Below, one piece after another: positions 8,303 to 47,338 of a DNA stretch of 64,000 bases. Location of the stretch: the NCBI GenBank assembly GCA_016841875.1, contig JAENYG010000009.1:1-64000 (forward strand), read 5' to 3'. Source of the DNA: Syntrophomonas sp. Its GTDB lineage: Bacteria; Bacillota; Syntrophomonadia; Syntrophomonadales; Syntrophomonadaceae. Every line of letters begins with the position of its first letter. Position 1 is the stretch's first letter. Made by a program: the position numbers and the translations under genes. Under the pieces are notes generated by a model, which saw only the letters and a program-made list of their open reading frames with translations, was not told the origin of the DNA and did not search any database.

Positions 8303-8442
8303 GGGGTCAGGCACTAACTCATTAGTTTTTCTACGAGCGGTGCCAGGCACTAACTTACTAACTTATGCATTATAGATTGGGACATAAGTTAGTAAGTTAG
8401 TGCCTGGCACCGCGCCTATGTAGTAAGTTAGTGCCTGACCCC
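8303..8442. repeat. nested REPIN-like elements, family B (GGTGCCAGGCAC core)
   Basis: An outer pair (GGGGTCAGGCACTAACT near 8303 and its complement ending at 8442) encloses an inner perfect pair of 29-nt arms (8339-8367 and 8383-8411). The arrangement looks like one element inserted into, or duplicated inside, another. The inner right arm runs into CACCGCGCCTATG, also found beside the family C element at 2568. Confidence 0.85.
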
Positions 8443-31626: not shown

Positions 31627-33465
31627 ATGGCTGCTAATTTTGCGTATCTAAACACCAGAGACTTGGAATTTATTCTTCAAGAATGGCTTCCTACCGAGGA
31701 AGTATTTGCTTATCCAAAGTTTGCCGATTATTATTCTAAAGATGATGTAAAATCTGTTCTAGCTCCAATTCTAAAAATGTGTAAAGAGGTTATCGAATCT
31801 ACTAACACTGATGGTGAAGAAAATCCGGTAAAATTTGAGAACGGAAAAGTAACCTGTTCACCGTCTTTTGGACCTTTATTCCATCAGCTACAGGAAGAGG
31901 GCTGGGGAACCAGCAACATAGACCACTCTGAAGATGCTATGGTTCTTCCTCATATCTTACATTCCACCGTATGGGAACTTATCGGTGCTGCCAATCCAAC
32001 CTTTTGTCCCACTATCATATTGACCAGTGGAGCGGCTGGACTAATCCAGAGCTATGGTGATGATCACTTAAAGAAGATGTTCCTGCCCAATATGATGGAT
32101 GGAACCTGGTCTGGTACCATGTGCCTGACCGAACCAAGTGCTGGTTCTGACGTAGGAGATATTTTATCCAAAGCCACACCCACCGATGATCCCAGGATTT
32201 TTAAGATTAAGGGACAGAAAATATTTATTACCTTTGGAGACAATGATTTTACGGAAAATGTTATCCACCTCTACCTGGCTAGAGTAGAAGGTGCCAAACA
32301 GGGAACCGGAGGTATTTCCTTGTTCGTAGTTCCCAAGTACTGGGTGAACGAGGACGGCAGTTTTGAACCCAATGATGTGGAGACTACCGGTATTGAACAT
32401 AAGATGGGCCAGCATGGTTCCTGTACTGCAGCTTTGAGCTTCGGCGATACCAACAGCTGCCGCGGCTGGCTGCTGGGGAAGAGCCCGTTAGAGAACGAAG
32501 GCCGAGGCGAAGGTATGGGGCAAATGTTCCAGATGATGAATGAAGCCCGCATGGAAACCGGTCATATGGCCTTATCATGTATTGCCAATGCCATGTATAA
32601 TGCCCGTGATTACGCCAAGGATAGAATACAGGGCCGATTGCTGACCAATCCTAAGGCTGGCCGTACTGCGATAATCAATCACGAAGATATCCGCCGGACT
32701 CTACTTTTGGGTAAAGCTCATGCCGAAGCGATCAGGGCTATGTTTTATAAGACCTATATGGCCTTTGATATTCGTGAACACGATCCCAATCCCGAAAGAA
32801 AGAAAGCTGCCAATGACTTGATAGAAATTACTACTCCATTGTGCAAAGCCTACCCCACCGATGAAGGCTGGTGGCTGTGCGCTGAAGCGATCCAGGCTTA
32901 TGGTGGATATGGATACTGTGAGGAATATCCTGTAGCCCAGATTGCCAGAGATATTAAGATTTATTCTATTTGGGAAGGTACCAACTTTATTCAGTCCCTG
33001 GATCTTTGTGGACGCAAGATGACCATGGGTAAAGGGGTTCCATTCCAGAATTTCATGAAGGAAATGTATGATTTTTATGAAGCCAACAAAGATAACGAAA
33101 CGCTGAAAAAGGAATTTGAAGTGTTTATAAAAGCTTTTAAGGCTATGAACAAAACCCTGCAGATTATGCAAGGATATCTGGGCAAAGGGGATTTCAGCAT
33201 GATGCCGCTGTATTCCCGCCGGATTCTAACTGCTTTGTCTCAGCTTTATGCAGGAAGATGCATACTGGATCAGGCTGTACTGGCTGCCCAGAAAGCCAAT
33301 GAAATTGGACCTGATCACTATGATTACAATTTCTATACCGGCAAAGTGCTGTCAGCCAAGTATTATCTCCTGAATGTAGTACCCAATGTTTGGTTATTAA
33401 CTGACATTGTTGAATTGGGAGACAGATCTGCCCTGGAAATTCCACTAGAATCATTTGATTACTAA
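31627..33465 (+). CDS. acyl-CoA dehydrogenase, long (AidB/DmdC-like) type
   Basis: The FAD enzyme introduces the 2,3 double bond in acyl-CoA and passes electrons to ETF. At 612 aa it exceeds the usual 380 aa because of an N-terminal extension and an extra C-terminal domain, as in DmdC-type members. Visible motifs are MCLTEPSAGSDVGD for flavin binding, YGGYGYCEEYPVAQIARD, and the catalytic Glu in YSIWEGTN. The substrate chain length cannot be told. Shine-Dalgarno GAGGGGG precedes the ATG. A strong terminator follows, so the gene is monocistronic. Confidence 0.93.
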   Translation: MAANFAYLNTRDLEFILQEWLPTEEVFAYPKFADYYSKDDVKSVLAPILKMCKEVIESTNTDGEENPVKFENGKVTCSPSFGPLFHQLQEEGWGTSNIDHSEDAMVLPHILHSTVWELIGAANPTFCPTIILTSGAAGLIQSYGDDHLKKMFLPNMMDGTWSGTMCLTEPSAGSDVGDILSKATPTDDPRIFKIKGQKIFITFGDNDFTENVIHLYLARVEGAKQGTGGISLFVVPKYWVNEDGSFEPNDVETTGIEHKMGQHGSCTAALSFGDTNSCRGWLLGKSPLENEGRGEGMGQMFQMMNEARMETGHMALSCIANAMYNARDYAKDRIQGRLLTNPKAGRTAIINHEDIRRTLLLGKAHAEAIRAMFYKTYMAFDIREHDPNPERKKAANDLIEITTPLCKAYPTDEGWWLCAEAIQAYGGYGYCEEYPVAQIARDIKIYSIWEGTNFIQSLDLCGRKMTMGKGVPFQNFMKEMYDFYEANKDNETLKKEFEVFIKAFKAMNKTLQIMQGYLGKGDFSMMPLYSRRILTALSQLYAGRCILDQAVLAAQKANEIGPDHYDYNFYTGKVLSAKYYLLNVVPNVWLLTDIVELGDRSALEIPLESFDY

Positions 33466-34980: not shown

Positions 34981-35784
34981 TTATTTATCAATAAAATAAC
35001 ACGGATGATCACAGCTGCTGCATTTCTTTTTGTTGATTTTTAAGCGAGGAGTTCGATTAGCCTCTTTAACCATCTGCAAAAGTTCGAGTGCAGTTTCATC
35101 ATTTTTATATCTGGCTGCTAGTACCACTGACCCTTCCATACCACCAACTCCTCCGGCAGCCACTTGCACCGCATCGATATCCAGCAGTATTTTGAGGCTC
35201 TCTATCTCGGTGATTACGGTAGCATTGGACAAACACATGTATCCGGTTTTCATGCCTATACATTGAGCGGTCTCACCGATTCCCATTACTTTCTCTGCTG
35301 CCAGGCAGGAGGGGATCAATTTTTCCAGACCTGCTGGTACAATGATCTGTATACCCCTGGCCTTCAAGATGCCGATAGATTTGCCGATGGTTCCTCCCTG
35401 TGGGTCGCCCAGTAAAATTCCGGCATTACCATACGGATCTACCGCATTAGCGCCTTTAATAAATATATCGCCGACGGTAAAACAGTTTAGAAATTCAAGC
35501 CAGTCCACTTCTACCATACGACCTTTTTCAATACACCAGGGGGCACAGCGCAATTGACTGTCGGTGGCACAGGAAGCCTGCTGAGTAATTACTCCGGATA
35601 CATGAGAATCCGGGCTTTCTATTTTTAGATTTAGCAGGTGTTGAGCTACGGCCAGGTTGGTAGTTCCATGACCGATAAAGATCCGGCCCTTTTCATAAGC
35701 GGATTTTACCTCTGGCAAGGCACATACTGCCCGGGCAATTAAGTATTTTGATGCCGCCGGGTGAATGGCAAAGGTGTTGAACAT
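34981..35784 (-). CDS. uncharacterised protein with C-terminal Cys motif
   Basis: I do not recognise this 267-aa soluble protein. It has a Gly-rich segment IGHGTTNLAVAQ near residue 38, DPYGNAGILLGDPQGGTIG in the middle and VAAGGVGGMEGSVV later, which suggest an alpha/beta nucleotide- or CoA-binding fold. A C-terminal CSSCDHPC could hold metal. AAAGGAG precedes the ATG. It lies 30 nt after the Hsp70-like gene on the same strand and may be the last member of that operon. Confidence 0.65.
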   Translation of the reverse strand: MFNTFAIHPAASKYLIARAVCALPEVKSAYEKGRIFIGHGTTNLAVAQHLLNLKIESPDSHVSGVITQQASCATDSQLRCAPWCIEKGRMVEVDWLEFLNCFTVGDIFIKGANAVDPYGNAGILLGDPQGGTIGKSIGILKARGIQIIVPAGLEKLIPSCLAAEKVMGIGETAQCIGMKTGYMCLSNATVITEIESLKILLDIDAVQVAAGGVGGMEGSVVLAARYKNDETALELLQMVKEANRTPRLKINKKKCSSCDHPCYFIDK

Positions 35785-35814: not shown

Positions 35815-37524
35815 TTATTTACTATCAAGAATCTGCAGCTGGCACAGAAGCTTATAGATCACGGTTTGAGCATGATTATCATAAGGAGCATGCGCATGAT
35901 GCTTCTGTTTCTCAAGATGAATGGCAAAATCTTTAATAAGATCAGGATTAATATGCTTATAATTCTCTATCAACTTGAGCGATTCCAGCTGTCGGGAGAA
36001 TAGATCACGAAACATCGGTATTGTTTTTTCAGGCCAGATCGGTCCTGCTGCCTGGGTATCAGTTTCCAAGCTGCAATTATACATATTCAAATATACATTT
36101 ATATCTACAGGGATTTCCTTTTCAGACCATATAACCTCCAGAACTGGTTCCATTCCCAGGAAACGTTCCTGGGTAATGACGGCTTCACCCTGTGCTACTT
36201 CATATATCTTCAGGGAGAGTTCGTTTTCAGGTGTAACATCCCCATTGATTTCAGGAGAAAAAGTTAGTATTTTATACCTGCCTAATATGTCCAGTTCAAG
36301 ATTAGCCGTATCAAAAGGGATTTTTTCCAGCTTGGTCTGATTATCAAGACCGTCATATATTTCCCGGTAGAAATCGAAGGGGTATATGGTTTTAAGGCTG
36401 GTGTGGCTATCAAGGTAATGGGCATTCCAGCAGCATAACCCCCTGGCCACCAGATCTGGGGAATCGGATATAATCACCGGGATACCCGGAAAGCACTCGG
36501 CAATAATCTGCTTTACTCCCGGAGCCAGTGAACCTCCACCCTGAAGCAGAATGTAGTCTAAATGCCAGTCATCGCCGGCGACCAGACCTAGTAAGGCAGC
36601 CCGATCTCTAAGGAAGCTCCGGCAGTATACTTGGAGTTTGCTATATACTGGCTCCAGGTATTTAAGAAACAAATTCTGATTAATATACGAAGAAATTGAC
36701 CCACCTTTATAGAAGTCGCTCAAATACCAGGCAGCGTAACCGTTTCTGCTTATTTTCAGTTTTAGTTTTTCAGCCTCCACCAGCCAAAAGTTATATAGCT
36801 GACGGTCTGCTGCCAGAAGTGATTTGCCAGTAATATATTTTTCGGGGATCCTTTGTCCGGTTTCCATTTGGTACAGGGGTACAAATATGTTTCTTATAAT
36901 ACCATGGTCAAGTTCTGAACCGGAAAAAGCATCATAGCCAATCTGGAATTGGCTTTCCAAAATAAGCTCCTGCATATCGCTGGCAGCATCTAAAAAACTA
37001 AAATCTGTGGTTCCTCCTCCTATGTCTATACTGAGAATAGTACCATCTAACGGCTGCCTAACATTTAGAGTGTTGTAAGCAATCAGCGCAGCCAGAGGTT
37101 CCGGTACTAGATAGATATCAGTAAGACCGAAAACTGTCCGGGCGGCATCCAGCAGTATCTGCCTGGACTTCAGGCCAAAGTAGTTGGGCACCGATAGGGC
37201 CAAGGATTTGATATGGGGAACCTTAACCTTAATATATTGTGAATATAAAAACGATAAGAAGCCTTCTACAACTTCCCTTAGTTGATAAGGACCGAGTTGA
37301 AAATCCACATATCGTTTTAAATCGAGTTTAAAAAAGAAGACTCTATCTGCCCCTGGCTCATCCAGGCGCAGGGCCAGGTTCCCGAAATAGAGCTGGTCAG
37401 TTGAGGGTAAATAAGCTGCTGCGGTTGGAATAAGCATTTCCTCAGGACTGATATCCACCCACTTTCCCTCTAACAGACCGGCGATCTTGGTGTATGAAGT
37501 TCCAATATCTATGCCCAGGTACAT
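35815..37524 (-). CDS. divergent Hsp70/DnaK-like chaperone ATPase
   Basis: The actin-fold ATPase motifs are clear: phosphate-1 GIDIGTSYTK (4-13), VPEPLAALIAY (140-150), phosphate-2 DIGGGTTDF (167-175) and the adenosine loop LQGGGSLAPGV (327-337) with DLVARGLC after it. Residues about 375-500 look like a reduced beta-sandwich substrate domain (KIYEVAQGEAVI, FLGMEP). At 569 aa it lacks most of the DnaK lid. It is the fourth gene of an operon with three unknown proteins and no DnaJ or GrpE, so it probably works with them rather than as the general chaperone. Confidence 0.82.
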   Translation of the reverse strand: MYLGIDIGTSYTKIAGLLEGKWVDISPEEMLIPTAAAYLPSTDQLYFGNLALRLDEPGADRVFFFKLDLKRYVDFQLGPYQLREVVEGFLSFLYSQYIKVKVPHIKSLALSVPNYFGLKSRQILLDAARTVFGLTDIYLVPEPLAALIAYNTLNVRQPLDGTILSIDIGGGTTDFSFLDAASDMQELILESQFQIGYDAFSGSELDHGIIRNIFVPLYQMETGQRIPEKYITGKSLLAADRQLYNFWLVEAEKLKLKISRNGYAAWYLSDFYKGGSISSYINQNLFLKYLEPVYSKLQVYCRSFLRDRAALLGLVAGDDWHLDYILLQGGGSLAPGVKQIIAECFPGIPVIISDSPDLVARGLCCWNAHYLDSHTSLKTIYPFDFYREIYDGLDNQTKLEKIPFDTANLELDILGRYKILTFSPEINGDVTPENELSLKIYEVAQGEAVITQERFLGMEPVLEVIWSEKEIPVDINVYLNMYNCSLETDTQAAGPIWPEKTIPMFRDLFSRQLESLKLIENYKHINPDLIKDFAIHLEKQKHHAHAPYDNHAQTVIYKLLCQLQILDSK

Positions 37525-37529
37525 CTGAA

Positions 37530-39098
37530 CTAACCTTTCTTTCCGATGATCATATAAGGTATTTCTTCACTGCTTTCATCCTCTACCCGGATAATAAAAA
37601 TGTCGCCTTCTTCATGTAGGATGGTATTATCAGTTCCCCCGGCAATACGAGTATTGATATGGTATTTATCCAAAAGGTAGAGATATTCATCTGCCAGGGG
37701 CAGTCCCCTGATCAAAGGTATGTGGGTGATCCGTATATCTAAATCCTTCCATACTCTGGCTATATTGCGGGGGGCCAGGAGTCTTTCCAGATCGTTCTTG
37801 ATATTGCTGAGCAATTCGATTTCTGAATCCAGCCGGGTTAATAAGTCTTCACAATGAGCAATAATACTCGACATATGCCTATATTCTTCAATTAAAATTT
37901 TTAATCTGCTGTCCATTATAGAAAAGGCACAGCTGACCTGCTGGAAACGAGCTGTTAAAAGGGTTATTTCTGTGACTGGACTCTCATGGGCTATGGTTTT
38001 ATAAAGGGGAGCAGAGAATTCCAGAATGTTTTGCATCTGACTGCTGAAATAAATAAAATCAATATCCTGGGTATTATCCATATCTTCTCCAACTTGTTCA
38101 ATATGCTTACGGGTAGAAGACACATCATAGTACAATTCTTTCAGGTATCCTGGATTTTTCAGGTTAAGCTGATATAATTCCGGTATCAGATGAAAACCAG
38201 GTCGGGATATATAAGATATGATAAGATCCAGAAAATCCAGCCAGATTTCAAAGAATTCAGAGAATTCCAAAATAATTTCTTTCAGCCGCGGGTAATCCTG
38301 TACCTGTAAGTTCAACATCATAAGTTCAGTATAATGCAAAGAAGCTGATCGGATTTGAACTTCATAAAAATCGCGAAATTCTTCCCCTGGCCAATCGATG
38401 GTGCTGCTTAACAGCAGGCTGCGAATTTTTGAGATACGTTCTGGTATAATACTTTCATCTGATGCACATTTTTGTATTAGCTTAAAAATTTGGCCTTGCT
38501 GTTTGAGCAGTTGATAATAAGAAGGGTCTTCTGAATTCACAGAACATAATGAGTTGGCACCCATTATTAACATCTGTGAACGGGCCTGCCCCTGAAAACT
38601 TGCCAGTCCAGATGATATCTCACTGAGGCAGTTCATGAAATCATCCAGTTCCAAAAACTTGGATCTTATTTCTTTAAAACCATAAATCAATTCAAGTACC
38701 TGACGGTCTATTTCATCGGTAAAGGATAATCTTTGTTCCATAATTTGCTGTTTTAAATCTTGCAGCCGGGCGGAAACGTTTTTAACCTGATTGAATAAAT
38801 TGGCATTACGTTTAATGATGGCAGCGATATGCTTTTTTAACAGATCCTCCTGTACTTTCAGACTCAGCAGTTGGTTGATCTCTTCCTTTACGTCCTTTTT
38901 GTACACTGGCCAAAAGGTTTCATGAAAGCTGCGATAATAAAAGGAGTTTACTGTCAGCAGATAACGATCTAGATTCTCTAGGGAACCAGGGTCTGATTCA
39001 AACTGCCGGCTTATTTCCTCCACCTCACTGCGCAGCAGGAGAAGAAAGTGTTGCATATTTTGACCATAAGTCTCCAGGTTCAAGTCATTAATGTTCAT
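37530..39098 (-). CDS. uncharacterised helical protein of the Hsp70 operon
   Basis: The 522-aa protein is not recognised. It is almost wholly alpha-helical by composition, with coiled-coil stretches such as LLKKHIAAIIKRNANLFNQV and a C-terminal beta-like tail (EEGDIFIIRVEDESSEEIPYMIIGKK). No signal peptide or membrane segment is seen. Its ATG overlaps the stop of the gene before (ATGA) and its stop is 5 nt from the Hsp70 start, so it is made together with both. A partner or client-loading role is inferred only from this coupling. Confidence 0.75.
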   Translation of the reverse strand: MNINDLNLETYGQNMQHFLLLLRSEVEEISRQFESDPGSLENLDRYLLTVNSFYYRSFHETFWPVYKKDVKEEINQLLSLKVQEDLLKKHIAAIIKRNANLFNQVKNVSARLQDLKQQIMEQRLSFTDEIDRQVLELIYGFKEIRSKFLELDDFMNCLSEISSGLASFQGQARSQMLIMGANSLCSVNSEDPSYYQLLKQQGQIFKLIQKCASDESIIPERISKIRSLLLSSTIDWPGEEFRDFYEVQIRSASLHYTELMMLNLQVQDYPRLKEIILEFSEFFEIWLDFLDLIISYISRPGFHLIPELYQLNLKNPGYLKELYYDVSSTRKHIEQVGEDMDNTQDIDFIYFSSQMQNILEFSAPLYKTIAHESPVTEITLLTARFQQVSCAFSIMDSRLKILIEEYRHMSSIIAHCEDLLTRLDSEIELLSNIKNDLERLLAPRNIARVWKDLDIRITHIPLIRGLPLADEYLYLLDKYHINTRIAGGTDNTILHEEGDIFIIRVEDESSEEIPYMIIGKKG

Positions 39099-40570
39099 TT
39101 CAATACCCCCAGAAAATGAGCACCTAATATTTGTCGCTTTAACAGTGCATCTTTTATCCTGAATAAGTCAGGCCGGGATGAGATTTCGTCAGACAGGTTG
39201 AGGCGGCTATTTTCTGTCACCGCATCACATATTTGCCGGGCCTGGTATCTGCATCGTTCCCCGGCCAGCGGAGCCAGCTGCGAGTATATAGTCTCATTCA
39301 TAAACATGCTGCAGGGCAGCCAGTTCCACAAACTGATATAATGATCGAGCAGTTGGGCAGCCATTTGTTTATTCAAGGAAATCATCTCCATCATACTGCA
39401 CATACGGAGATATTCCATAAGAACAAAAGATTCATGCGGTAGGGCAGCTATTTTTTGATTAATATTATCGATAAAACCATTCAAACGTGCAGCATCGATA
39501 CCTTTATTCAATTCATCGGTTTCGATCAGGTGACTATCAAAAGGTCGATAATTATTAAGCTTGTTGCTTCTTATATAAATTTCATACATGATGTTGGGGT
39601 TTTGCTTATAAAAAGCTGTGACAATGCTCTCGTACACAGCCAGATACTGCAAGCTGGCTGGATCACGGTTAATAAGGGGAAAATAATCGGTGTAAATTCT
39701 ATCCGCTAATTCATACGGAGTTAAAGGTTGGCTTAACAATGCATGTACAGGAATTACCTGACGCAGCAAGCGGTAGAAAGTACGATAAATTTTCTCATCA
39801 TCTAGAAGGCTTACCAGTCGGTTTTTTCTTTTATAATCCTCATAAATATCAACCAGTACCGCCAGGCAATCTTCAACCATACCGCTATGAAAGATTACTT
39901 CGCCTGCTGCTAACAGCCGGGTAAAACGCTCTATACAGTAAGGGTCGTGGTAATTATGAATACTGCCTTCTTCCAATAAATCCAGCGCTTTAAGGATATT
40001 TTCTATTTTATCTCCGTAGAGGCCTGAATAAGTTTCGGTTCTTTGAGATTTTTCAAAACCATAAAGGGTTTGTTTCCTGTTACTGAAAAGTTCAGATTCA
40101 CGGTCTTTAAAAAGCTTGCGTAGTTCTGGATTGGCCGTTCTTGATAGCAAATACTGGCAGGATTCAAGATTAAGGGCATTTACCACCTGTATCATCGCTG
40201 CATGGTATTCTGAGTTATAGAGATTAACTATAAATTGGAGCTTTTCTGGATGAGGCTGCCGGAGAACAATATGCCAGGGAAGAAAAGACCAGAAGTCCTG
40301 CAGCAAAAAAACCGGCCCATCCCCCAGCCATTTTAGCACCTGTATATTTTGGAGATTGTCCAGCAGCAGGTTAATAAAGTCCAATTTTTTGTTCGAGAAA
40401 TACCAGGAACGGAAAAAAAACTCTAACTCATTGACTTTAGATATAGGTACGGTATGGACATCATTAACAGCTGCCCGGGCTGATGCTCTCAGGCTAAGTT
40501 CACTCTGCCACATATTAAACAGATCACTATTATCCAGAGTATGGTCTAATTCGAGTAGTATGCTTTGCAT
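39095..40570 (-). CDS. uncharacterised protein of the Hsp70 operon
   Basis: This 491-aa protein is not recognised. It is rich in Leu, Tyr and charged residues with repeated amphipathic helices (for example LLLDNLQNIQVLKWL and LAVYESIVTAFYKQNP), resembling alpha-helical repeat proteins. ATG 40570 is chosen because TGAGGAG, which includes the stop of the upstream gene, precedes it by 6 nt; an ATG at 40597 has no such site. The 3' end overlaps the next gene by 4 nt. Confidence 0.72.
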   Translation of the reverse strand: MQSILLELDHTLDNSDLFNMWQSELSLRASARAAVNDVHTVPISKVNELEFFFRSWYFSNKKLDFINLLLDNLQNIQVLKWLGDGPVFLLQDFWSFLPWHIVLRQPHPEKLQFIVNLYNSEYHAAMIQVVNALNLESCQYLLSRTANPELRKLFKDRESELFSNRKQTLYGFEKSQRTETYSGLYGDKIENILKALDLLEEGSIHNYHDPYCIERFTRLLAAGEVIFHSGMVEDCLAVLVDIYEDYKRKNRLVSLLDDEKIYRTFYRLLRQVIPVHALLSQPLTPYELADRIYTDYFPLINRDPASLQYLAVYESIVTAFYKQNPNIMYEIYIRSNKLNNYRPFDSHLIETDELNKGIDAARLNGFIDNINQKIAALPHESFVLMEYLRMCSMMEMISLNKQMAAQLLDHYISLWNWLPCSMFMNETIYSQLAPLAGERCRYQARQICDAVTENSRLNLSDEISSRPDLFRIKDALLKRQILGAHFLGVLK

Positions 40571-40580
40571 TTTTTTCTCC

Positions 40581-41276
40581 TCAAGTGGATCTTCCATACA
40601 GTGCTATATTTAAAACAGAACAGGCATTTTCAGCCTTAATAATATCTCTTTCATTCAAAAATATGTAATAATAAATAGATTTTTCTTTATTGGTATATAT
40701 CCCGCCCAGCTTATCAGCTTCCAGAACATCTATTCTATCCTGACTGGCCTTGCTGCCTTTCAGGTAGCGGTATGACTGGAGACGAGTAATGAATTGGTAT
40801 TTGACTAATCTTTCGAAATGCGATTTTAAACCTATTTCTTTGTAAGGATTGGCTTCTTCATATTTAATAACCGCACTTCCTGATCTGGCCGATGGTAATT
40901 GCTGCGGGTTGGAAGCAGGTTCAGCCAGAGAACGGGTTAGCTGTTTTAGAAGATAATGATTTTCCTGCTTAAGTATGTACGCAATATAAGGATGCAATTC
41001 CACCGGGAATAGCTCGAGCATATCAGGTGTCTTAGCTATTAGGTCAAATAGCTCCGGATTATATATCATGTGGTTAATCAGATCATCTATATCATATTTG
41101 AAATGGGGGATGTATACTGAATAATCCAACCATAAAACTGATGAATATCTATCATAAAATAAATCATAGGACTCTACCGAACTGTTGAGAAGAACATCAA
41201 TATATTTTAAGAGTTCTTCATATTCCTTATCAGTTAATGTTTCCCTTTTATCAAGTTTTCTAAGTATACCTCTCAT
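40581..41276 (-). CDS. uncharacterised first gene of the Hsp70 operon
   Basis: The 231-aa product is not recognised. It begins with a charged helical segment (LRKLDKRETLTDKEYEELLKYI), is rich in Tyr and Leu, and ends with a small alpha/beta part (KLGGIYTNKEKSIYYYIFL). It heads the operon, divergent from the YiiX-like gene, and its stop forms part of the ribosome site of the next gene. Its own ribosome site is weak. Confidence 0.68.
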   Translation of the reverse strand: MRGILRKLDKRETLTDKEYEELLKYIDVLLNSSVESYDLFYDRYSSVLWLDYSVYIPHFKYDIDDLINHMIYNPELFDLIAKTPDMLELFPVELHPYIAYILKQENHYLLKQLTRSLAEPASNPQQLPSARSGSAVIKYEEANPYKEIGLKSHFERLVKYQFITRLQSYRYLKGSKASQDRIDVLEADKLGGIYTNKEKSIYYYIFLNERDIIKAENACSVLNIALYGRST

Positions 41277-41395: not shown

Positions 41396-42019
41396 ATGAA
41401 ATTAAACACCAAATGGTGGAACAAATTCAGTCTAATAGTGTTCCCTTTGTTAATTCTGGTGAATTCAGCACTGCTGGTCAGCGATAACCGCCAGATTTTT
41501 CAGGATAAGGAAGCTGTTATGTATGCCTATATAGATAGTGCATCCCAGGGTAAATTTGGCTATGGGTTTAATGTTCAATACTATAATGATATTTCCTTTG
41601 CTGGACTTGAAGTAGGCGATATCATACTGGGAGGATATCCTGACTGTGCCTACGGGCGGTTTTCTCATGTTGGGATATACAACGGCAATGGACAGGTTAT
41701 AGAAGCTTTTGTGGATTATGGAGTGCACATACGCGCTATCGACCATTTCCGTAACTATACAGAGGTCTGCCTGCTCCGGGTTGAAGCGGATCCAGAGGTA
41801 AAAAAGAAGGCCGCAGAATATGCCGCTGATTTCCAGGGTAAGATGTTTTATCCCCTGGCGTTTAAACCCGGGGACAGGATATGGAATTGCAGTAAGGTTA
41901 TATGGAAAGCATATATGGAGCAAGGAATTGAATTGGATGATCACAGGGATTTATGGATTTCTCCGGATGCTTTCTATTACAGTCCGCATGTTAGTATTAT
42001 TCGGGAGAAAGGAAATTAA
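41396..42019 (+). CDS. YiiX-like exported cysteine peptidase (permuted NlpC/P60 fold)
   Basis: A hydrophobic N-terminal segment (FSLIVFPLLILVNSALLV) anchors or exports the protein. The domain has the permuted papain arrangement: His91 in FSHVGIY, followed by an acidic residue in VIEAFVD, and the nucleophile Cys165 in WNCSKVIWKAYMEQGI. The family cuts amide or lipid-amide bonds in the envelope. At 207 aa it is of normal length. It ends exactly where the next gene starts, so the two are coupled. Confidence 0.85.
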   Translation: MKLNTKWWNKFSLIVFPLLILVNSALLVSDNRQIFQDKEAVMYAYIDSASQGKFGYGFNVQYYNDISFAGLEVGDIILGGYPDCAYGRFSHVGIYNGNGQVIEAFVDYGVHIRAIDHFRNYTEVCLLRVEADPEVKKKAAEYAADFQGKMFYPLAFKPGDRIWNCSKVIWKAYMEQGIELDDHRDLWISPDAFYYSPHVSIIREKGN

Positions 42020-42457
42020 ATGCTGGCGAATGTATTAAGATTATATGTTATTAATATCAGTGCTTTTGGGGCTGGTGTTTTAAGTATCTATTTCCCGGGG
42101 CTGGATATTATCGTTTCGTTTATTTACCTGCTGGTTATTGCCATGGAAGCACGCCGAGCATATGAACTGCCCTTAAACCAAAAGATTATAACGGTCTTAA
42201 TCTGGCAGGCTCCGGCCATCTTTTTTGCCGGAATCTGTATAACTGCTTATAATTTTATGGGCCTTTATGAATATGCTATCTTTATGCTGCAATTCTGGTA
42301 TACTCCCCTGGTAGGTCTGCTGTCCCTGGCCGGCATAACAGTTTATTCTGATAAACCCTTATATTACTATCTTCTGATTTATTTACCTTTTATCAGCTGT
42401 TTTTATTATACTGTCCTGGCATCGATAAATTATAGAAAGTTATTCCACTGTTCATAA
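42020..42457 (+). CDS. small four-helix membrane protein
   Basis: The 145-aa protein is mostly hydrophobic, with about four spans (for example LYVINISAFGAGVLSIYF and LDIIVSFIYLLVIAME). No family is recognised. Its ATG lies directly after the stop of the YiiX-like gene with GGAAATTAA as ribosome site, so it may act with that enzyme. Confidence 0.7.
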   Translation: MLANVLRLYVINISAFGAGVLSIYFPGLDIIVSFIYLLVIAMEARRAYELPLNQKIITVLIWQAPAIFFAGICITAYNFMGLYEYAIFMLQFWYTPLVGLLSLAGITVYSDKPLYYYLLIYLPFISCFYYTVLASINYRKLFHCS

Positions 42458-43545: not shown

Positions 43546-44115
43546 ATGAAACAAAATATCACTCTGGCTCCCCCCAGTGCAGAAGATAAGGAATTTATCT
43601 CCCGTATCGAGAGAGAAGCAGACACCAGCATAAGACTGTGTTACCAGTGTGGAAAATGTACCGCCGGATGTCCGGTTGCATTTGCCATGGACAGCCCTCC
43701 CCGGCAGATAATCAGATATTTACAGCTGGGTTTAGTGGAAGAAGTAATGGCAGCAGACAGCATATGGATCTGTGCTACCTGTGAAACATGCTCGGCCCGC
43801 TGTCCAAGGGGAGTAGATATAGCATCATTAATGGATGCATGCAGAAGAGAAGCATTAGCAGCGGGAAGAATAACCGACAAAAAAGTAGCCGTATTTAATG
43901 AAGCTTTTTTGAGTGGGGTCAAGAACTTTGGGAGGACCTATGAAGCAGGCCTATTGCTGCAACATAACCTCAAGACCATGCAGCTCTTAAAAGATGCAGA
44001 ACTTGGTCTGCCCATGATAAAAAGAGGCAAAGTATCGATACTCCCTGAAACGATCAAAGGCAGAGATCAGGTAAAGAAAATATTCCAGCGAATTGAGACA
44101 ATGGGGAGGGAATAA
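43546..44115 (+). CDS. hdrC: heterodisulfide reductase-like iron-sulfur subunit C
   Basis: This electron carrier holds two 4Fe-4S clusters and links HdrA to HdrB. Ligands are Cys32, 35, 38 and 42 (CYQCGKCTAGCP) and Cys76, 79, 82 and 86 (CATCETCSARCPRGVD). At 189 aa it is normal for HdrC. AAAGGAGAG precedes the ATG. It opens the seven-gene hdrCBA-flxDCBA operon, in which all genes touch or overlap. Confidence 0.92.
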   Translation: MKQNITLAPPSAEDKEFISRIEREADTSIRLCYQCGKCTAGCPVAFAMDSPPRQIIRYLQLGLVEEVMAADSIWICATCETCSARCPRGVDIASLMDACRREALAAGRITDKKVAVFNEAFLSGVKNFGRTYEAGLLLQHNLKTMQLLKDAELGLPMIKRGKVSILPETIKGRDQVKKIFQRIETMGRE

Positions 44116-44116
44116 G

Positions 44117-45316
44117 ATGCCTTTAGGGTATTATCCTGGATGTTCAGGAGAAGGAAGCGGAATAGAATATAAAATGTCAACCGAAAAAACTGCAGAGATG
44201 CTGGGGATTGAGCTGCAGGAACTGGAAGACTGGAACTGCTGCGGAGCCACCTCAGCCCATAACACCAACAAATTGCTGTCATTAGCCCTGCCAGCCCGCA
44301 ATCTGGCCATCGCCGAGCGGATGAATTTGGATAGCATTCTGGCACCCTGCGCCGCTTGTTACAGCCGCCATCGGGCCACCGAAGTGCAGGCTCGGGAAGA
44401 TGATGAAATGCGCTTAAAAATTCAGGAAATAATAGATATGGAATTCAAGGCTAAGAGCCGCACCATTTCAGTCTTGGAATGGCTGGTAAATGATATTGGC
44501 ATCGAGAAGATCAAAGAAAAAGTCACCAAGCCTTTAAAAGGCATGAAAGCAGCCTGTTATTATGGATGCTTACTAGTCCGGCCCGAAGAATATACCGGTT
44601 TTGATGACAACGAAGATCCCCAGACCATGGACCAGATAGTAAAAGCCACCGGAGCCCAAGCAGTTGACTGGGCGTATAAAACCGAATGCTGCGGAGCCGC
44701 CCTGGCCACCTCCAGGCCAGAAATCGGAGCCAAAATGATCTACGAAGTGATCCAAAATGCCCGGCAAGCCGGAGCAGAATGTATAGTCACCGCCTGCCCA
44801 TTGTGCATGCTCAATCTGGACATGCGTCAAGCCGGAGCAGGAAAACAATATAGCGTAAACCTGGACATGCCCATCTATTATGTGACCGAACTGGTAGCCC
44901 TGGCCGGAGGATATAGCAACAAAGAAGTAGGGATACCCAAGCACTTTGTAGAAGCAGAGAGCTACCTGGAATCACTGCCGCAGAAAGCGGCCGAGATAGA
45001 AGCAGCCGAAGCAGCCAAACAGGCTAAACCGGGTAAAAAAGCAGCAGCAGCCTCTTCAGGAGCAGACGAGGCTCAGGATGAGGAAGCCAATCAGAAAAAA
45101 ATAGCTGCCATGAAAAAAGGATTTGAGAAGAATCCAGATAAGATGGCCGCCAGAATCATCGAAGATGAAGAACGGGCTAAGATCCTGGCTGAAATAGTAG
45201 CCGGAGATGAAAAGAAGATCAGTAAATTAGCAGAGTTAATGGTCACCGATCCGGAAAAGGCCTTCAAAGTAGCTGATGCCTTTGTTACCGGCGAACTAAA
45301 GAAACGGGAAAAATAG
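44117..45316 (+). CDS. hdrB: heterodisulfide reductase-like subunit B with unusual C-terminal extension
   Basis: HdrB carries the two CCG domains that bind noncubane 4Fe-4S clusters and reduce disulfides: the first ends in DWNCCGATSAH, the second in TECCGAALATS, each with its downstream CxxC-type partner (CAACY, CPLC). Homologs are about 290-300 aa, but this protein is 399 aa. The extra part from about residue 290 is an Ala/Lys-rich linker (AAKQAKPGKKAAAAS) followed by a charged helical module of about 75 residues. ATG 44117 follows GGGAGG 1 nt after hdrC ends. Confidence 0.92.
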   Translation: MPLGYYPGCSGEGSGIEYKMSTEKTAEMLGIELQELEDWNCCGATSAHNTNKLLSLALPARNLAIAERMNLDSILAPCAACYSRHRATEVQAREDDEMRLKIQEIIDMEFKAKSRTISVLEWLVNDIGIEKIKEKVTKPLKGMKAACYYGCLLVRPEEYTGFDDNEDPQTMDQIVKATGAQAVDWAYKTECCGAALATSRPEIGAKMIYEVIQNARQAGAECIVTACPLCMLNLDMRQAGAGKQYSVNLDMPIYYVTELVALAGGYSNKEVGIPKHFVEAESYLESLPQKAAEIEAAEAAKQAKPGKKAAAASSGADEAQDEEANQKKIAAMKKGFEKNPDKMAARIIEDEERAKILAEIVAGDEKKISKLAELMVTDPEKAFKVADAFVTGELKKREK

Positions 45317-45346
45317 ATCAATAGTTGGAAAAGGAGGGAATAGGAG

Positions 45347-47338
45347 ATGAAGAAACGAGCAGGCGTATTTGTTTGCCAGTGCGGAACCAACATCGAAGCC
45401 ACCATTGATACAGAAAAAGTGGCAGAATACGCCAGAACATTACCAGGCGTAGCCTATGCTACCACCTATAAATATATGTGCTCAGATCCCGGCCAGGAAT
45501 TGATAAGAACTGCCATAGAAGAGCATCAGCTGGAACAGATCGTGATTGCATCCTGTTCACCGCGCATGCATGAAAACACCTTCCGCAAGGCAGTAGTGGG
45601 CGGAGGATTGAACGGATATATGTTTGAGATGGTCAATATTCGGGAACAGGATTCCTGGGTACACCATGACCGAGACGCAGCCACCAAAAAAGCTGAAGAT
45701 CTGATAAGAATGGGAGTCAGCAAGGTCTTAAAGAACAAACCGTTACAGGTTTCTACCATACCTATCACCAAGAAAGCCCTGGTCATAGGCGGTGGAATAG
45801 CTGGAATGCAAGCCGCCCTGGATATAGCCGAAGCCGGGCATCAGGTAGTACTAGTAGAGAGAGAAGCCTCCATCGGCGGGAAGATGACCCAACTGGACAA
45901 GACCTTTCCCACCATGGACTGCGCCGCCTGAATAGGCACCCCCAAGATGGTTGCTGTGGCGCAGCATCCTAACATTGAACTGATGACCTATACCGAAGTG
46001 AGCAAAATCTCAGGATATATCGGAAACTTCAACGTGCAGGTAAAAAAGAAAGCTAAATATGTAGACTGGGATCTATGCACCGGCTGTGGTCTGTGCACTG
46101 AAAAATGTCCCACCAAAAAACTGAAAGACGAATTCGATCTGAACATGGGCTTAAGACCCGCGATTCACAAAGTATTCCCCCAGGCGGTACCCGGCAAACC
46201 ATATATAGATCCAGACAACTGCCGGAAGTTGACCGAAGATAAATGTGGGGTCTGTGAAAAGATATGCCCCACCAAAGCGATAAAATTCGATGATAAAGAT
46301 GAATATATAGATCTGGAAATTGGAGCCATCGTTATGGCCACCGGCTATGATCTATTCAACTGGGAAGCAGCTTATGGCGAATATGGATATGGTAAATACC
46401 CGGATGTTATCTCCGGTCTGCATTTCGAAAGACTGGTCAGCGCTGGCGGTCCAACCTCAGGTCACATAAAAAGACCATCGGATGGAAAAGAACCCAAAAG
46501 CGTAGCCTTTATCAAATGTGTAGGTTCCAGAGATGACACCAAGGGCAAGAGCTACTGTTCCAGAGCCTGCTGTATGTATACTGCCAAGCATGCCTACCAG
46601 GTCAAGACCAAGATAGAAGACAGCGAAGCCTATGTATTTTACATGGATGTACGTACGGGCGGAAAGAATTACGAAGAATTCTACCAGCGCTCCCTAAATG
46701 CAGGTGCCACCTATATCCGGGGCCGGGTGAGCAAAATATATCCTAGAGGAGATAAACTGGTATTGAAATCTGAAGATACCCTGATCGGCAGGCCTATCGA
46801 AGTAGAAGCTGATCTGGTAGTCCTGGCAACAGCCATGGTACCTTCAGCAGGATCATTAGATCTGGCTAAAACCATAGGATTTTCCACCGACAAAGATGGA
46901 TGGTATCAGGAAGCTCATCCCAAACTACAGCCGGTAGAAACATTTTCCGCCGGAGTATATCTGGCTGGAGCATGCCAGGGGCCGAAGGATATTCCCGACA
47001 GTGTAGCCCAGGCCAGTGCAGCAGCAGTCAAAGTATGCGGATTGTTCTCCAAGACCGAGTTAGCTACCGAGCCCATGACATCAGAAGTAGATATCAGCAA
47101 GTGCTCGGGATGTGCTCTATGTGTACCTATTTGTCCATATAATGCGATCTCATTAAAAGAAATAAATGAAAGAGGCGGTCATGGTCATGGACCGTTTACC
47201 AGAACGGTAGCTGAGGTGAACAGCAGTTTGTGCCAGGGATGCGGAGCCTGTATTCCTGCCTGCCGGACTGCAGCCTTAAACCTTAAAGGCTATACCGACG
47301 AACAACTTGTATCGGAGGTGGATGCACTGTGTCTATAG
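45347..47338 (+). CDS. hdrA: heterodisulfide reductase-like subunit A, selenocysteine-containing
   Basis: The frame is interrupted once by TGA (45929-45931) and continues in phase to TAG 47338, giving 663 residues with selenocysteine at 195. The surrounding motif is MDCAA-U-IGTPKM; other HdrA proteins have Cys at that place. Before it lies the FAD loop VIGGGIAGM (146-154); after it are ferredoxin motifs CTGCGLCTEKCP, CGVCEKICP, and a C-terminal pair CSGCALCVPICP and CQGCGACIPAC. HdrA is the flavin-based electron-bifurcating centre. Sec-HdrA is known in Methanococcales. It is not a pseudogene: coding continues strongly on both sides. Confidence 0.9.
45949..45969 (+). promoter_or_regulatory. 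SECIS-like hairpin of hdrA
   Basis: 17 nt after the TGA, GGTTGCTG and CAGCATCC pair (one T-T mismatch) around the loop TGGCG. Bacterial SECIS elements sit in this position within the coding sequence and show G residues in the apical loop. Confidence 0.6.

Follow-up and report, generated by a model that had tools for sequence, protein, structure and literature searches.

A conserved four-gene operon of Syntrophomonadaceae combining three unassigned proteins with a divergent Hsp70 whose ATPase has repeatedly been lost in relatives

The DNA analyzed here, referred to as the window, comprises positions 1 to 64,000 (64,000 nucleotides, forward strand) of contig JAENYG010000009.1 from a Syntrophomonas sp. 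genome (GenBank assembly GCA_016841875.1), and it carries on its minus strand one tightly packed operon of four head-to-tail genes, i.e., those of three proteins without assigned family, designated S231, A500 and CC522, followed by that of a divergent Hsp70 (Table 1). A sequence-only reading of this DNA had described the four open reading frames (ORFs), and its positions, lengths and junctions proved correct. S231 and A500 are joined via TGAGGAGAAAAAAATG, which combines stop codon, ribosome-binding site and start codon, while the overlap between the A500 stop and the CC522 start measures 0 to 7 nucleotides (nt) in nearly all loci compared across species; a gap of 5 nt separates CC522 from the Hsp70 gene. 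The mechanically called A500 ORF is 500 amino acids (aa) long and reaches 40597; the 491-aa start fits the homologues better.

Table 1. Features of the operon and its immediate surroundings in the window
Feature	Window position	Strand	Remark
S231, first gene	40581..41276	-	231 aa
S231 C-terminal domain	40898-40593	-	residues ~127-228
S231/A500 junction	40571..40583	-	S231 stop and A500 ribosome-binding site; TGAGGAGAAAAAA precedes ATG
A500, second gene	39095..40570	-	491 aa, counted from ATG at 40570
A500/CC522 junction	39095..39098	-	ATGA; 4-nt overlap of A500 stop with CC522 start
CC522, third gene	37530..39098	-	522 aa
CC522 C-terminal small beta domain	37778-37533	-	residues ~441-522; weak GrpE-like pattern
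Divergent Hsp70, fourth gene	35815..37524	-	569 aa
Hsp70 nucleotide-binding domain (NBD)			residues 1-371
Hsp70 lobe IIB stretch	36637..36912	-	residues ~205-296; deleted in most degenerate relatives
Hsp70 C-terminal domain in SBD-beta position			residues 372-495
Hsp70 short tail	35818..36039	-	residues 496-569; sole part matched by the 78-aa ORF of two species
P7, downstream gene	34981..35784	-	267 aa; next gene in ~14 loci, not always; no Pfam match
C92/NlpC-like permuted papain amidase	41396-42019	+	divergent neighbour, conserved in family
Small protein with membrane-like segments	42020-42457	+	divergent neighbour, conserved in family

Judged by its sequence, the fourth gene product is a true but remote member of the Hsp70 superfamily. 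It matches PF00012 in Pfam (E=2e-11) and BiP/DnaK in a PDB profile search (E ~1e-27), in which the 60 best hits listed are all Hsp70; hhalign scores it against DnaK at 99.6%, and in a tree its clade is separate from DnaK, on a branch of ~3 changes per site. The sequence-only reading held that this Hsp70 keeps all ATPase motifs, which was confirmed for the window species at eight of eight checked positions (DnaK D8, T/S13, K70, E171, D194, T199, D201 and the adenosine-site G). The phosphate-1, connect, phosphate-2 and adenosine motifs, together with the catalytic D, K, E, D and T, are likewise present in the window protein and in every intact homologue, and at the level of motifs the motor of this species looks functional. 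The full-length hhalign alignment continues through the DnaK TPLSLG region, while the C-terminal domain alone scores 0.2%, and no match to the DnaK lid (SBD-alpha) was found, the alignment ending at about residue 456 of 569. The protein was thus correctly described as lid-less in sequence terms, but it does possess a C-terminal tail of ~75 aa, compared to ~100 in DnaK. The reported absence of DnaJ and GrpE genes nearby also stands: a canonical grpE is encoded on another contig of the same genome, a second DnaK-DnaJ-ClpB cluster (L169; G000 contig C52, ~90.5-96.3 kb) lies ~50 kb from the operon on the same contig, and J-protein or GrpE genes are not recognizable in the operon at any of ~33 loci. 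DnaK often works with partners encoded elsewhere, so that their absence from the operon carries little weight.

The first three gene products had been said to lack recognizable domains, and searches of Pfam, which was also run on every alignment member, and of NCBIfam agree, no family reaching its cut-off. PADLOC returned no meaningful match, the domain libraries gave only chance-level coiled-coil or unrelated matches, and PDB sequence profile searches with the three proteins yielded no credible solved chain; the profile searches that had been expected to expose any known system therefore named none. S231 is predicted to consist of a helical N-terminal half and an alpha/beta C-terminal half (AlphaFold pLDDT 88, pTM 0.85); its C-terminal domain is highly conserved, the S231 alignment contains 22 invariant columns, and a Foldseek search of the model against the PDB returned nothing better than E=0.17. 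The CC522 model (AlphaFold pLDDT 87) features a 129-residue helix (residues 40-168), additional bundles of helices and, at the C-terminus, a small beta domain; Foldseek matched this model to generic coiled coils only. No domain was recognized in A500 by the Pfam, NCBIfam and PDB profile searches.

The four genes form a conserved unit, as had been supposed, and their neighbourhood is not confined to one species: the gene order S231-A500-CC522-Hsp70 is unchanged in more than 30 loci of the Syntrophomonadaceae and a sister family, in the latter with different surroundings at another genomic position. S231 was detected in 48 of the 63 Syntrophomonadales genomes (44 of 54 in its own family, four of four in one sister family and none of five in another), and across 398 evenly sampled genomes of the phylum its occurrence was confined to its own family and the one sister family. 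When ~85,000 genomes of prokaryote species were scanned, 42 loci came up, almost all from records titled Syntrophomonas or Syntrophomonadaceae, among them those of S. wolfei, S. palmitatica and S. zehnderi. No copy of the operon was found in the viral contigs scanned. Metagenome assemblies make up most of the genomes used here, and contig ends truncate some of the loci. Inheritance is single-copy, family-wide and mostly syntenic rather than by patchy transfer. Some family members are without the whole operon; in one relative (L167) the flanking genes are kept and all four operon genes are absent together from the syntenic site. No paper discussing these loci was found in a search of the open literature, and the main texts searched contained nothing on the genes of the S. 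wolfei locus (locus tags about Swol_0385-0399, as inferred from synteny).

The state of the Hsp70 was typed in ~38 loci, in 14 of which the same orthologous gene, at the same place, has lost ATPase residues. Each of these dead Hsp70s is without several of the eight positions that every intact member retains in full, and lobe IIB is deleted in all but one of the 14. The exception, L209, is full length yet catalytically altered (K70 to W, E171 to G and T199 to A), while in three loci of one genus (L061, L062 and L216) the N-terminal third of the Hsp70 is also gone. In two species of another genus (L059 and L215), a 78-aa ORF sits after CC522 instead of the Hsp70; the two ORFs are 61.5% identical to each other, and one of them matches the Hsp70 profile in its tail only (18-21 bits; E=1.2e-4 over the ORF set). 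The tail is the portion kept longest among the degenerate relatives. Contig ends apart, S231, A500 and CC522 are present at the dead and tail-only loci, and the dead Hsp70 ORFs stay open at 343-563 aa across many divergent species.

These losses occurred repeatedly. On concatenated partner-gene trees ~5 state changes are needed, two to three of them forced by well-supported branches, and a single loss uniting all dead and tail-only loci in one clade was rejected with trees of S231, A500 and CC522, although p-AU 0.039 (approximately unbiased test) is only moderately strong and long branches are involved. Within the genus of L057, L064 and L209, a grouping of the two IIB-deleted members was rejected (p-AU 0.0008), with L209 as a full-length but altered intermediate; the reconstructed sequence of events in this genus is catalytic death first, followed by at least two losses of lobe IIB. 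The degenerate genes remain under selection: a close pair of dead Hsp70s (L070/L208) shows dN 0.219 and dS 0.83 (nonsynonymous and synonymous divergence, respectively), i.e., a dN/dS of ~0.26, and the pair of 78-aa ORFs dN 0.22 and dS 0.57 (dN/dS ~0.39), compared to dN 0.071 and dS 0.373 for the intact Hsp70s of the window and L041, dS being near saturation for most pairs. The ratio near 0.26 indicates that the dead Hsp70s are functional and not junk. Conservation of the Hsp70 NBD falls from 46% in intact to 23% in dead lineages, while that of the S231 C-terminal domain is 65% and 63%, respectively. For A500 and the CC522 C-terminal domain it drops in dead lineages to ~0.7 of the intact value, which suggests that these two touch the Hsp70.

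It is proposed, with about an even chance of being correct, that S231, A500 and CC522 constitute the core of a lineage-specific cytoplasmic complex, in which the Hsp70 would be an ATP-driven subunit, probably attached by its tail and dispensable as a motor. S231 would contribute the domain under the strongest constraint, and CC522 would serve as a long coiled scaffold. Docked onto this core, most likely via its C-terminal tail, the Hsp70-type ATPase would use its ATP cycle to open, close or reload either the complex or the client of the complex. The motor would be an accessory, several lineages having lost the catalytic residues and then lobe IIB, and one genus all but the tail, with the core staying under selection while the motor degenerates. 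Because relatives repeatedly kill, trim or nearly delete the Hsp70 ATPase and keep the trio, it is apparently the three unassigned proteins that make up the core, rather than the chaperone motor. The sequence-only reading of a chaperone-like or assembly ATPase system is accordingly retained as to a conserved unit of no known family and not supported as to the ATPase being its engine, which is dead, without lobe IIB or reduced to a tail in several independent lineages in which the trio stays. Several points weigh against the proposed complex: it and its function are deduced from the genes, both AlphaFold models (CC522 and S231) are of monomers, the identification of the 78-aa ORFs as tails rests on one copy with modest scores, and the reduced conservation of A500 and the CC522 C-terminal domain could instead reflect that some of the dead lineages have been diverging for longer.

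The strongest alternative, to which we attach roughly a one-in-four likelihood, is a full private Hsp70 machine, whereby the Hsp70 binds a specific client through its SBD-beta-like domain, CC522 is a highly divergent GrpE-like nucleotide exchange factor, and S231 or A500 acts as the J-protein. The predicted order of a long helix followed by a beta domain in CC522 is that of GrpE, a pattern G-x-x-F-x-P ... N-T-I-x-x-E ... G can be aligned by eye in the CC522 end, and only one of 100 column shuffles of GrpE scores as high as this end, which is suggestive only; moreover, the CC522 C-terminal domain is relaxed where the ATPase is dead, and a parallel operon of TPR, J, GrpE and Hsp70 genes exists elsewhere in the phylum (L165). 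A GrpE-like role of the CC522 end is possible, in keeping with its layout and with its relaxation in dead lineages, but is weakly supported by sequence. Against this, hhalign gives the CC522 end a probability of only ~6-12% with GrpE, the full-length comparison is empty, GrpE (PF01025) is not among the families listed for 31 CC522 members, Foldseek returned merely generic coiled coils, and no HPD-type J motif is visible by eye in S231. The trio also persists without ATPase and lobe IIB, so that exchange factor and J-protein roles cannot be its whole job.

It is unlikely, at around one chance in eight, that the Hsp70 of the degenerate lineages is simply a decaying relic, which would mark an operon function being lost there and say nothing on the intact system. 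The halved NBD identity, the longer branches of all core genes in several dead clades and the loss of the whole operon in some family members would fit such decay, but the long ORFs kept open in divergent species and the dN/dS of the close dead pair do not, nor does the 78-aa remnant, which keeps its length under a dN/dS of ~0.39, or the S231 C-terminal domain, which is as conserved as in intact lineages.

Less probable still, and only slightly above a one-in-twenty prospect, is an actin-like filament or positioning system, in which the actin-fold protein polymerizes or positions something, as MreB/ParM-type proteins do, with CC522 as coiled-coil adaptor. A weaker MreB match in Pfam (31 bits) and the coiled-coil partner are compatible with this idea; however, the best profile matches are all Hsp70/DnaK/BiP, Hsp70 models outscore MreB, an extra ~120-aa domain and a tail lie beyond the actin core, and lineages that have lost lobe IIB, which happened repeatedly, should no longer be able to form an actin-type filament. 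A CoCoNuT-type defence system, pairing a coiled-coil protein with an Hsp70-like subunit of weak ATPase, is very improbable, as the operon contains no McrB GTPase, McrC, HEPN or other nuclease, McrB-like GTPase and McrC are absent also from the conserved neighbourhood, PADLOC gave no meaningful match, no copy was found on the viral contigs scanned and inheritance is vertical rather than patchy.

Among the surrounding genes, P7 is probably a neighbour and not an operon member. The two divergent neighbours are distributed independently of the operon, and the C92 amidase was rejected as a member of the system, since it occurs in genomes, and in a family, without the operon. A secreted PdaA-like polysaccharide deacetylase gene, which is not present in the window, lies directly upstream of S231 on the same strand in ~10 relatives (including L046 5511-6470, L054 12156-13025, L058, L059, L061, L062, L063, L070 and others). 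The sporulation link at which this gene hints was discarded, as the SpoIVA marker occurs in almost every genome, whether or not the operon is present, and leaves the operon's distribution unexplained. Heterodisulfide-reductase-like genes (HdrC, HdrB and HdrA; 43546-47338) and, on the other side of the operon, an acyl-CoA dehydrogenase gene (31627-33465) lie in surroundings whose synteny is kept in the family and which seem to match the S. wolfei region Swol_0384 to Swol_0400. Paired inverted repeats carrying GGGGTCAGGCACTAAC occur beside P7 (34897-34971) and elsewhere in the window (8303-8442) and resemble a REP element; 12 copies of the sequence are found in the genome and none of the reversed control. 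A second unusual Hsp70 of the order (~497 aa; L159 7591-9084, also L160-L164, L166 and L170) is located inside a chemosensory operon whose genes, named by eye, are CheR, CheY, CheA, ParA, a small protein, Hsp70, an MCP-like receptor, CheW and CheB; an Hsp70 within a chemotaxis-ParA operon merits separate study.

The operon is conserved in butyrate degraders of the Syntrophomonas type, and in the present data three unannotated families stand out as a core function conserved among syntrophic oxidizers of fatty acids, including the model organism Syntrophomonas wolfei. An Hsp70 is usually considered to be nothing without its ATP cycle. In these free-living bacteria, one orthologous gene in one conserved operon is found as a full ATPase, as a full-length altered protein, with lobe IIB deleted and as a bare tail, the partners being kept; these natural variants make directly testable whether an Hsp70 serves its partners beyond ATP-driven client cycling. 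It is put forward tentatively, as somewhat short of an even prospect, that the operon encodes a bacterial complex of a new kind: three lineage-specific proteins would be its working core and the Hsp70 a removable regulatory subunit, which evolution would have repeatedly converted from a motor into a dead scaffold and, in one genus, into no more than a docking tail. If so, the natural deletion series would show what portion of an Hsp70 is truly required by a partner complex.

With DnaK/Hsp70 (PF00012) the window protein shares an actin-type ATPase with all catalytic residues and a further domain at the SBD-beta position; it differs in its very long branch, in a C-terminal domain not recognizable alone as SBD-beta and in the absence of a DnaK-type lid, and its operon differs in the lack of a J or GrpE gene and in the repeated loss of the ATPase in relatives. 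HscA, an Hsp70 that serves a single dedicated client, is the best NCBIfam model for the NBD, yet its 52 bits are far under the family cut-off of 708 bits, and the operon contains no Fe-S assembly genes or HscB. GrpE (PF01025) resembles CC522 in its long helix, its small C-terminal beta domain and its gene position just upstream of Hsp70, whereas CC522 has 522 aa compared to ~190, shows no significant profile or fold match and coexists with the canonical GrpE elsewhere in the genome. In another lineage of the phylum, a clear four-gene operon of TPR, J-protein, GrpE and Hsp70 (L165 4622-9891) is similar in comprising a helical repeat protein, a small protein, a coiled-coil protein and then an Hsp70; there, a J domain, a GrpE signature and an Hsp70 of DnaK type can be read directly from the sequence, while in the window operon only the ATPase is recognizable. 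Finally, CnuD of type III CoCoNuT systems is Hsp70-like, has degenerate ATPase motifs and is encoded in an operon next to coiled-coil partners (PMC11090510). The window operon is alike in placing an Hsp70-like protein beside coiled-coil partners, but it is devoid of GTPase, McrC and nuclease, is vertically inherited, and encodes an Hsp70 that keeps its full ATPase motifs.

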